DNA of 43,701 nucleotides, taken from NCBI GenBank assembly GCA_027449025.1, contig DAIDMK010000024.1:1-43701 (forward strand), read 5' to 3'. A program made the translations under genes and the position numbers. How positions within the stretch are numbered: position 1 is the first letter of the stretch; the number at the start of each line of letters is the position of its first letter. The DNA comes from Lutibacter sp. (lineage in GTDB: Bacteria > Bacteroidota > Bacteroidia > Flavobacteriales > Flavobacteriaceae). The notes below the pieces were generated by a model. It had not been told where the DNA came from, made no database searches, and was given only the letters and a program-made list of their open reading frames with translations. Below, in pieces: positions 5,643 to 43,701 of this stretch.

Positions 5643-6602
5643 TTATTTACTAGTTTTAAAAAATTCAATAATTTGTGAAGCCAATTCCGTGCCAATTCTA
5701 TCTTGAGCCTCAGTAGTTGCCGCTCCAATATGAGGAGTAAGCGATATATTTGGATTCATTAACAACTGAATTTCAGGTGTTGGCTCTTTTTCAAATACAT
5801 CAAGTGCCGCACCAGCAATTTTTCCTATTTCAATGGCTTTCACCAAAGCAACTTCATCAATTACACCGCCACGTGCAGCATTCACAATAAATGCGTTATT
5901 TTTCATTAACTCAAATTCCTTTGTGGACAGTACATATCCTTTTTGGGCAGGAACGTGAATTGAAATAAAATCGGCCTGTTTTAAAACTTCTTCTTTGGAA
6001 ATGGTTTTTATGTTAAAAAATACCGTTTGATGGTCAAAAAACTCAAGTTCCAACTTTGCACTTTCAATAAATGGGTCAAAAGTTACCACTTTCATCCCCA
6101 ATCCTAAAGCAATATTAGCGGTGGCTTGTCCAATTCGACCAAAACCAAGAATACCAATTGTTTTACCTTTTAATTCTATACCTTTTGCGTAGGATTTTTT
6201 TAAATCATTAAATTTTGAATCCCCAACCAAAGGCATGTTTCTGTTAGATTCGTGTAAAAAACGCACCAATCCAAATAAATGTGCAAAAACAAGTTCTGCT
6301 ACAGAATGTGAAGATGCAGCAGGTGTGTTTATAACGTTAATTCCTTTTTCACGAGCATATTCAACATCGATATTATCCATTCCAACACCACCACGACCAA
6401 CAATTTTAAGGTTAGGGCAGTTGTCAATAATGTCTTTTCTAACTTTGGTAGCACTTCTTACAAGCAATACAGAAACTTTATTTTTATTGATATAATCTAC
6501 AAGTTGGTCTTGGGCAACGGTTGTTGAATCTACTTCAAAGCCAGCTTTTTCAAGAGCGGTAATTCCACCTTTCGCTAGTCCGTCATTCGCTAATACCTTC
6601 AT
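5643..6602 (-). CDS. serA: D-3-phosphoglycerate dehydrogenase (short form)
   Basis: SerA oxidises 3-phosphoglycerate to 3-phosphohydroxypyruvate with NAD+, the first step of serine biosynthesis. From the chosen ATG at 6602 the protein is 319 residues. It begins MKVLANDGLAKGG; a start at 6644 would add 14 Lys/Asn-rich residues and run into serC. The 2-hydroxyacid dehydrogenase motifs are the dinucleotide-binding GILGFGRIGQ, the NAARGGVIDE block with the substrate arginine, an acidic partner in the FEKEP segment, and TPHIGAAT with the catalytic histidine. The C-terminal ACT/ASB regulatory domains of long SerA forms are absent, so serine feedback through ACT is not expected. Its position 22 bases after serC supports SerA over other hydroxyacid dehydrogenases. 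Confidence 0.92.
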   Translation of the reverse strand: MKVLANDGLAKGGITALEKAGFEVDSTTVAQDQLVDYINKNKVSVLLVRSATKVRKDIIDNCPNLKIVGRGGVGMDNIDVEYAREKGINVINTPAASSHSVAELVFAHLFGLVRFLHESNRNMPLVGDSKFNDLKKSYAKGIELKGKTIGILGFGRIGQATANIALGLGMKVVTFDPFIESAKLELEFFDHQTVFFNIKTISKEEVLKQADFISIHVPAQKGYVLSTKEFELMKNNAFIVNAARGGVIDEVALVKAIEIGKIAGAALDVFEKEPTPEIQLLMNPNISLTPHIGAATTEAQDRIGTELASQIIEFFKTSK

Positions 6603-30876: not shown

Positions 30877-30994
30877 ATTTATATAACAGATGAAATGCTT
30901 ACAACAAATTAATCTAACAGAAAAAAAAGATTCTGAGCGTTCCATTTGTCAAATAAAAAACAACAAATAAAACGAGTATAACAAATTTTAATAA

Positions 30995-31059
30995 ACAAAG
31001 GAATGATTAATAGTGAACAGCATCTGTCACCGTTTAAAAATAAAATTTAAACAGATGAA
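30995..31059 (+). promoter_or_regulatory. Leader block with mini-ORF, shared with the second lpxD
   Basis: The 17 bases from 30995 (ACAAAGGAATGATTAAT) are identical to 41832-41848, and the last 24 or so bases before the start codon (AT-rich, ending TTAAACAGATGAA) also match with one or two differences. The block contains a 15-codon mini-ORF at 31003-31050 (MINSEQHLSPFKNKI) that ends four bases before the ATG of the DUF6495 gene. It may be a translated leader peptide or a duplicated translation-initiation region. Confidence 0.5.
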
Positions 31060-41237: not shown

Positions 41238-41804
41238 ATGGCAACAACATCGGATATTAGAAACGGATTGTGTATTAGATACAATAATGATATTTTTAAA
41301 GTAATTGAGTTTTTACACGTAAAACCTGGAAAAGGTCCGGCTTTTGTGCGCACGAAATTAAAAAGTTTATCTTCAGGGAAAGTTTTGGACAATACATTTC
41401 CTGCCGGTAGAAAAATAGAAGACATTAGGGTGGAGACTCAAAAATTCCAATTTTTGTATCCTGAAGGTGATTCATTTCATTTTATGAATACAGAAGATTA
41501 TAATCAAATTACCTTGCAAAAAAATGTATTGGATGCTCCCGATTTATTAAAAGAAGGAGAAATCGTAACGATTATTATCAATACCGAAGACAACTTACCA
41601 CTGTCTGTTGATATGCCAATGAGTGTAATTTTGGAAATAACGCACACTGAACCGGGTGTTAAAGGAAATACCGCAACAAATGCAACAAAACCGGCAACTG
41701 TTGAAACAGGTGCTGTTATCAATGTTCCGTTATTTATCAACGAAGGCGATAAAATTAAAGTTGATACGGCGAAAGGTGCATATTTAGAACGCGTTAAAGA
41801 ATAA
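41238..41804 (+). CDS. efp: Translation elongation factor P
   Basis: EF-P binds between the P and E sites and relieves ribosome stalling at polyproline. The 188-residue protein has the three-domain EF-P pattern: an N-terminal KOW-like domain with K32 at the tip loop (HVKPGKGPAFVRTK), the conserved site of possible modification, then two OB-fold domains. The N-terminus is MATTSDIRNGLCI and the C-terminus carries DKIKVDTAKGAYLERVKE, the EF-P family end. No modification enzyme is encoded nearby. Its position between lpxA and the second lpxD is a recurrent flavobacterial arrangement as I recall it. Confidence 0.97.
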   Translation: MATTSDIRNGLCIRYNNDIFKVIEFLHVKPGKGPAFVRTKLKSLSSGKVLDNTFPAGRKIEDIRVETQKFQFLYPEGDSFHFMNTEDYNQITLQKNVLDAPDLLKEGEIVTIIINTEDNLPLSVDMPMSVILEITHTEPGVKGNTATNATKPATVETGAVINVPLFINEGDKIKVDTAKGAYLERVKE

Positions 41805-41831
41805 TTTTGGTACGAGCAATACGTATATTGC

Positions 41832-41894
41832 ACAAAGGAATGATTAATTGCGAATTAACTACTACAGCTAAAAAATAAAAATTAAACAGATGAA
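41832..41894 (+). promoter_or_regulatory. Leader block with mini-ORF upstream of the second lpxD
   Basis: A mini-ORF at 41840-41878 ([12 protein letters not shown]) is preceded by AAAGGA and ends 11 bases before the lpxD ATG at 41890. The first 17 bases match 30995-31011 exactly and the last roughly 24 match the same distance before the DUF6495 start, so both genes share this leader. The same DNA recurs at the right edge of the window. Confidence 0.5.
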
Positions 41895-41913
41895 ATTACC
41901 TCGTAAATATAAG
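41837..41913 (+). repeat. Internal copy of the terminal 77-base repeat
   Basis: These 77 bases recur without mismatch at 43625-43701. They cover the mini-ORF leader and the first eight codons of the second lpxD. The base before each copy differs (A at 41836, T at 43624), which fixes the left limit. Confidence 0.95.
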
Positions 41914-42813
41914 TTGAAAGAAATTGCGGATATTATTGGGGCAACTTTTGTGGGGCCTGAAGATTATCCAATTACTGGTTTTAATGAAATACATGTGGTT
42001 GAAGAAGGTGATATTGTTTTTGTGGACCATCCAAAATATTACGACAAAGCGCTTCATTCAAAAGCCTCCGTTATTCTGATAAATAAGAAAGTTGAATGTC
42101 CGGCAGGAAAAGCATTGCTTATTTCAGAAGACCCCTTTACCGATTTTAACAAATTGACCAAATATTTCAATCCATTTAAAGCCGTTAATTCACCCATTTC
42201 TGAGTCGGCTATTATTGGTGAAAACACGGTAATACAGCCAAATGTATTTATAGGGAATAATGTTAAAATTGGCGCTAATTGTTTAATTTATCCCAATGTG
42301 GCCATTTATGATAATTGTGTTTTAGGAAACAACGTCACCATTCATGCAGGCACTATTTTGGGCGCCGATGCCTTTTATTATAAAAAGCGACCAAGTGGTT
42401 ACGATAAATTAATTTCCGGCGGAAGCGTAATTATTGAAGATAATGTTGATATAGGGGCACTTTGTACTATAGATAGGGGCGTTTCTGCCAATACAACTAT
42501 TAAAAAAGGAACGAAAATAGACAATCAGGTCCAGGTTGGTCACGATACTGTAATTGGCGAAAATTGTCTGATTGCTTCACAAACAGGAATTGCTGGCTGT
42601 GTTATTATTGAAAATAATGTTACTTTATGGGGACAAGTAGGCACAAATAGTGGTATTACCATAGGGGAAGGCGCAGTTGTTCTTGGACAAACAGGTGTCA
42701 CAAAATCCTTAAAAGGAGGCATCTCTTATTTCGGAACTCCCGTAGAGGAATCAAGAAAGAAATTGAAAGAGATGGCAGAAATAAAACAGCTGATAAAAAA
42801 TCAAAAAAAGTAA
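41890..42813 (+). CDS. Second LpxD-like N-acyltransferase
   Basis: A 307-residue LpxD paralogue. It has an N-terminal uridine-binding-like domain (about 1-100), hexapeptide repeats and the catalytic-site histidine H218 in QVQVGHDTVIGENCLIAS, in the same place as H241 of the first LpxD. It differs in the substrate loop (GADAFYYKKRPSG in place of [13 protein letters not shown]) and has a shorter C-terminal part. Annotation as lpxD is common for such genes. A separate acyl specificity, or action on another sugar nucleotide, is plausible but unproven. Its leader is shared with the DUF6495 gene, and it lies between efp and sucD. Confidence 0.88.
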   Translation: MKLPRKYKLKEIADIIGATFVGPEDYPITGFNEIHVVEEGDIVFVDHPKYYDKALHSKASVILINKKVECPAGKALLISEDPFTDFNKLTKYFNPFKAVNSPISESAIIGENTVIQPNVFIGNNVKIGANCLIYPNVAIYDNCVLGNNVTIHAGTILGADAFYYKKRPSGYDKLISGGSVIIEDNVDIGALCTIDRGVSANTTIKKGTKIDNQVQVGHDTVIGENCLIASQTGIAGCVIIENNVTLWGQVGTNSGITIGEGAVVLGQTGVTKSLKGGISYFGTPVEESRKKLKEMAEIKQLIKNQKK

Positions 42814-42843
42814 TAAATCCTTCTATCCTAAACTTAGAAAAAC

Positions 42844-42851
42844 TACTTTTG
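42844..42851 (+). promoter_or_regulatory. -7 promoter box of sucD
   Basis: TACTTTTG matches TAnnTTTG and ends 36 bases before the sucD ATG. No convincing TTG -33 element is visible. Confidence 0.5.
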
Positions 42852-42887
42852 TAATACGATAAAAACTTTAATTCAAAATATACTTCA

Positions 42888-43631
42888 ATGAGCGTTTTAG
42901 TCAATAAAAATTCAAAAATAATTGTACAAGGATTTACAGGAAGTGAAGGCACTTTTCACGCAACCCAAATGATAGAATATGGAACAAATGTTGTTGGTGG
43001 TGTTACTCCAGGAAAAGGAGGAACTTCTCACTTAAATAAGCCTGTTTTTAATACTGTACAAGATGCAGTTGATCAAGTGAAAGCTGATACTTCAATAATT
43101 TTTGTGCCACCGGCTTTTGCTGCTGATGCTATTATGGAAGCCGCTGCTGCTGGCATTAAAGTAATTATTTGTATTACGGAAGGAATTCCTGTTGCAGATA
43201 TGGTAAAAGTGAAAGCTTATATTGACAATAAAGAATGCAGATTGGTTGGACCTAATTGTCCGGGAGTAATTACACCAGGAGAAGCTAAAGTTGGCATTAT
43301 GCCAGGTTTTATTTTCAAAAAAGGAAATGTGGGCATTGTTTCTAAATCGGGAACTTTAACTTATGAAGCTGCTGATCAAGTGGTGAAAAAAGGATATGGA
43401 ATTACCACAGCCATTGGTATTGGTGGTGATCCAATTATTGGAACTACAACAAAAGAAGCTGTTGAATTGTTAATGAATGATCCTGAAACCAAAATTATTG
43501 TTATGATTGGTGAAATAGGAGGTCAGTTAGAAGCAGAAGCTGCACGTTGGGTAAAAGCAACTGGGAATAAAAAACCAGTAGTTGGTTTTATTGCAGGTCA
43601 AACTGCTCCTAAAGGAAGAACAATGGAATGA
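42888..43631 (+). CDS. sucD: Succinyl-CoA synthetase alpha subunit, 3' end cut by a junction
   Basis: SucD is the alpha subunit of succinyl-CoA synthetase in the TCA cycle; it binds CoA and carries the phosphohistidine. The frame is clean from [21 protein letters not shown], with the CoA-binding [36 protein letters not shown] and [10 protein letters not shown] blocks, up to [10 protein letters not shown]. There the expected GHAGAI (with the active-site His) is replaced by Glu and a stop, so only 247 of about 290 residues remain. The switch coincides with the start of the 77-base copy of the upstream lpxD leader. The true gene probably continues normally; residues from 43625 onward should not be trusted. 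Confidence 0.9.
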
Positions 43632-43701
43632 TTAATTGCGAATTAACTACTACAGCTAAAAAATAAAAATTAAACAGATGAAATTACCTCGTAAATATAA
43701 G
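43625..43701 (+). repeat. Terminal 77-base exact repeat of 41837-41913
   Basis: The final 77 bases of the window are identical to an internal stretch beginning 1788 bases earlier. The length is an odd number typical of de Bruijn graph k-mers, and the copy ends exactly with the window, so a contig-end overlap is the likely origin. Confidence 0.92.

Follow-up and report, generated by a model that had tools for sequence, protein, structure and literature searches.

Does this contig end in a second copy of lpxD behind a broken sucD, or does its end reflect the way in which it was assembled? The window, the whole analysed stretch of 43,701 bases, comprises all of contig C24 of the Lutibacter sp. 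draft genome (G000; 3,340,972 bases in 136 contigs). Position 43701 is the last base of this contig, and contig end and window end thus coincide. Taken as biology, the copy would imply that a lipid A gene is duplicated and a TCA-cycle enzyme broken; alone it supports neither. The relevant features are given below, with the names efp, lpxD and sucD taken from NCBIfam.

30973..31054, plus strand: further copy of the start-codon repeat family described below, abutting the ATG of a 156-aa ORF
41238..41804, plus strand: efp, elongation factor P, upstream neighbour
41813..41889, plus strand: decayed copy of the 88-nt start-codon repeat before lpxD (profile match, E 3e-8), followed by ATGAAATTA of lpxD
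41837..41913, plus strand: first occurrence of the 77-mer, consisting of 53 bases of leader (41837-41889) and the first 24 bases of lpxD
41890..42813, plus strand: lpxD, complete, 307 aa
42888..43631, plus strand: sucD, truncated by the junction, 247 codons with stop TGA (43629-43631); NF004230 positions 1-245 of 291
43620..43626, plus strand: junction zone ACAATGG; the relative G005 is collinear up to 43626 and continues into GHAGAI
43625..43701, plus strand: terminal copy of the 77-mer, very probably a k-mer overlap (graph node) at the contig end

Direct comparison of positions 43625-43701 with 41837-41913 revealed zero mismatches at an offset of 1788 bases, confirming the exact copy at the contig end described in the initial annotation. 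The full 77-mer was present at just these two sites in the readable part of the genome. The five bases preceding the two copies are ACAAT and ACAAA, respectively (four of five identical), and identity starts right past the differing base, T at 43624 versus A at 41836. Such a start fits a contig whose written sequence extends as far as the node at which two paths join. The terminal copy stops eight codons into lpxD (ATG at 43678).

To place this length in the context of the assembly, the longest exact match anchored at the terminal base was determined for 123 of the 272 contig ends, on both strands and against the own-genome sequence in the sample. The other ends lie on contigs reading as N (82) or outside the sample (67); contigs C96-C136 (41 of 136; 505-2277 bases) read wholly as N. 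The match was exactly 77 bases long at 45 of the 123 readable ends and exceeded 77 bases at none of them. Nine ends reached 76 bases, five 75 bases and 14 between 23 and 74 bases, while 50 displayed no match of at least 21 bases. The value of 77 is the ceiling as well as the commonest length among the ends having a match. Of 400 random interior anchors used as control, 394 showed no match of at least 21 bases, and since the longest match in this set was 48 bases, a chance origin of the 77-base match is excluded. The ceiling across contig ends therefore indicates that 77 was the k-mer length of the assembler. The final k of SPAdes is often 77. Repeats at the contig ends of any draft genome can be sorted in the same way, by checking whether end-anchored matches stop at one length.

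These counts strongly support the assembly-graph overlap suggested in the initial annotation. Together with the identity, the position at the contig end, the T/A start of identity and the normal continuation of sucD in relatives, they make it very probable that the 77-base copy is a graph overlap rather than a 77-base repeat of biological origin. We infer an assembly by a SPAdes-like de Bruijn graph with k = 77. The path running from efp through lpxD to sucD would have re-met the k-mer node of the lpxD leader by means of a join after ACAATGG in sucD. The contig would then have been written through the already-passed node and ended there, probably halted since this node was already used, leaving a lasso of 1788 bases. 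Because the node had served at the lpxD leader before, the terminal 77 bases by themselves are no independent evidence for a second lpxD. A published account gives overlapping sequences at contig ends as a product of the SPAdes process (PMC5481147). C24 resembles such overlaps in its exact terminal repeat of one constant, odd length, which is ceiling and commonest value at contig ends, and differs in having its partner in the same contig, 1788 bases inwards, and in reaching it via a join absent from the relatives seen.

The overlap accounts for the contig end, but not for the join between sucD and the leader. Reads or contigs of smaller k must therefore have contained the junction. In C24, GRTM is followed by E and a stop in place of GRTMGHAGAI. 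Twelve relatives of the same genus were compared, one of which (G004) had no sucD match; all eleven others encode GRTMGHAGAI within an uninterrupted SucD of 290-294 aa. The junction string was detected in five of the 286 loci examined, all five being C24 itself. At the switch, the leader reads ACAAAGG and sucD reads ACAATGG, so that just GG is exactly common. We give roughly an even chance to chimeric reads or a wrong graph link as the source of this join.

A real tandem duplication or amplification of 1788 bases, in the order leader-lpxD-sucD' then leader-lpxD-sucD, would have closed the graph loop just as well and is compatible with the k-mer overlap. We regard it as a serious, if tentative, candidate. 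De Bruijn-type assemblers are expected to follow a well-covered junction, and the contig takes the junction over the normal sucD continuation. Such loops exist elsewhere in the assembly. Five of the 45 ends with 77 bases recur solely inside their own contig (C7, C15, C24, C74 and C75), and the four contigs other than C24 begin with a 77-mer that recurs inside the same contig. Three of these four are tandem repeats: C7 holds the dispersed repeat in array form, and an imperfect similarity continues past the 77 bases in C74 and C75. Nothing beyond the 77 bases recurs in the 1000 bases of C15 examined. The sequence order at the C24 junction is the one that a short-homology tandem gene duplication gives, although the second copy in C24 spans only 77 bases, which the overlap explains. 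Against a duplication stands the absence of any other trace, with SucD uninterrupted in 11 of 11 relatives and the junction string confined to C24 among the 286 loci. Moreover, homologous recombination between the two 77-mer sites is unlikely, as no more than GG, or ACAA-GG if a mismatch is allowed, is common to both at the break.

An excised circle of 1788 bases carrying lpxD and most of sucD, next to a normal chromosome, would also supply junction reads, and by logic alone its sequence across the junction would be identical. The initial annotation was correct in stating that a tandem duplication or a circle yields the same sequence. Still, lpxD and most of sucD fill the segment with no sign of a replication gene, and the chromosomal path should prevail over a circle that is rare; we consider this origin very improbable. 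The further argument that a dead SucD favours an artefact fails, as a circle need not remove the chromosomal copy in all cells and a tandem duplication retains a whole downstream sucD, by which SucD function would be preserved. With the downstream sucD whole in this arrangement, the truncated frame says nothing on TCA function. Taken together, causes of the join besides a chimera or false link and a tandem duplication appear improbable.

The normal order is unbroken in G005, where efp, lpxD and sucD are followed by a thioredoxin-like gene (labelled by eye from its translation) and a minus-strand gene. SucD of G005 is 98% identical to that of C24, and C24 is collinear with this locus up to ACAATGG (L159 position 5068). 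The reversed end of contig C14 aligns to the same locus from position 6045, past 176 unaligned bases. Because this alignment begins 977 positions past the stop of C24 in G005, C14 is likely the true neighbour of C24. The approximately 976 bases in between were found in no readable contig, 41 small contigs reading as N. Searches of the readable contigs with the missing 976 bases returned just short dispersed repeats at the DNA level and, at the protein level, nothing closer than distant thioredoxin-like proteins, the top-scoring of which had 34% identity. Likewise, no readable contig continues the sucD side of the branch or contains an intact sucD 3' end, with 41 of the 136 contigs reading as N. 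A small N-reading contig of about 1 kb could contain the missing bases. We do not claim that the genome has lost the 3' end of sucD, since 41 contigs, all shorter than 3 kb, read as N. The C14 end itself opens in another repeat (TCATCAAACTTCTTGGAATC...), which is present at further contig ends too.

Bases 1-59 of the 77-mer are part of a dispersed repeat family, a point absent from the initial annotation, and this family is a more interesting lead than the contig-end copy. These 59 bases have at least 61 matches in the own genome, with 40 of 125 candidates scored, two of them being the 77-mer itself. The repeat abuts start codons, mostly ATGAAA, and is in places arranged head-to-tail in units of 88-89 bases. 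Contigs C7 and C57 likewise open in arrays of it.

A profile was built from 57 copies in other genomes with the following ATG left out; all 57 had been retrieved by a search pattern including ATG. In 450,484 readable bases of the own genome it yielded 27 matches, all 27 with ATG at the profile end (extrapolated by 2 and 5 bases in two of them). Downstream of these matches we found an ORF of at least 60 aa in 13 cases, the next repeat unit in nine, a short ORF in four and the end of C24 in one. The exact repeat core occurred in 107 stretches (80 titles: Lutibacter, Flavobacteriaceae, Flavobacteriia, Flavobacteria bacteria, Gelidibacter and Bacteroidetes bacteria), and the profile matched 164 times in these loci. 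After removal of 15 matches with a truncated 3' end, two running off and one duplicate, 38 copies had not been picked by the search pattern, and these were followed by ATG in 37 cases and by CTG in one. Of the 37 copies, 17 lead into an ORF that has at least 60 aa or is still open at the end of the locus, 10 into the next unit and 10 into a short ORF. Of the 108 exact-core copies, in which the core includes the ATG, 76 lead into a long or open ORF, 22 into the next unit and 10 into a short ORF. Within the genus, 30 of 38 genomes, the own included, matched the repeat consensus at least once. Read in frame from its first ATG, the repeat encodes a mini-ORF of 27 codons stopping 4 bases before the ATG of the gene in 33 of the 57 training copies; in the others the frame stops after four codons (23 of 57) or after 18 codons (1 of 57). 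Folding of the 57-copy alignment was weak (-4.5), and the consensus alone gave -8.1 with a different shape.

Insertion of this repeat into sucD would offer another route to the join, as the 77-mer is mostly a copy of the repeat and ACAATGG in sucD resembles its internal ACAA-GG. The terminal copy, however, begins midway through the repeat, shows the decay peculiar to the lpxD leader and carries 18 lpxD-specific bases after ATGAAA, and all 27 profile matches in the readable own sequence run into ATG. We rejected an insertion as extremely improbable, since the lpxD-specific bases travel along.

Comparison of the gap between efp and lpxD revealed the repeat in G000 (decayed), G001, G002, G005 and G009 (as an array). 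The copy in G000 is without the 5' ATGAA(A/C)CGAGC and reads GGTACGAGC; G001, G002, G005 and G009 retain ATGAAACGAGC at the repeat 5' end before lpxD. No repeat was found in G006, G007, G008, G010 and G012, in which the efp stop is followed after 4 to 11 bases by ATGAAATT of lpxD, or in G011, which has a different upstream sequence. G003 (unparsed) and G004 (without sucD match) stood outside this comparison. Like small bacterial repeats of the REP/MITE type, the start-codon repeat is short and multicopy, with relatives differing in its presence at an orthologous site. Unlike these, it abuts start codons and forms head-to-tail arrays of 88-89 bases, its lpxD copy has no Rfam match (none with E up to 1 over 41700-43701), and the loci surrounding the own genome's seven Y1 transposase matches contain no copy. 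A tie to Y1 transposases (IS200 or REP-associated) was rejected on the latter ground. Viral contigs contained no exact match of the repeat core. A thin word search of titles and abstract starts found no description of such a start-codon repeat, which may be published elsewhere.

With about half of our confidence behind it, we propose that the 77-mer consists largely of a decayed copy of a mobile element of 88 nt, which belongs to a Lutibacter-like genus and inserts exactly at ATGAAA starts. The old ATGAAA would be left heading the mini-ORF, with its stop 4 bases before the new ATGAAA of the gene, and self-adjacent insertion would give rise to arrays with different numbers of copies between relatives. 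Such an element might tune the translation of many genes, and the copy in the lpxD leader may have aided a real lpxD amplification; both its mobility and its effect on translation we infer. The family could bear on the evolution of translation leaders in these bacteria.

Further repeats accompany this family. Of 111 exact-core copies, 40 have GGCAGG in the 100 bases upstream (L042, L043, L044 and others). Here a palindrome resembling CCTGCCGGCAGGCAGG is inserted in the stretch from GGCGAAC to the core, at a nearly constant position as judged by eye. A second repeat type is located at about 30890-30966 of the window, before a unit of the first repeat, and also in the own contigs C7 (159-246), C65 and C75. 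In C7, C65 and C75 it contains a short frame, 22-29 codons long, which starts with MKRLQQ in C7; there the repeat lies just before a start codon. In L015, a run of N (1704-1802) falls within a repeat array before the start of a gene that is aspartokinase-like by eye.
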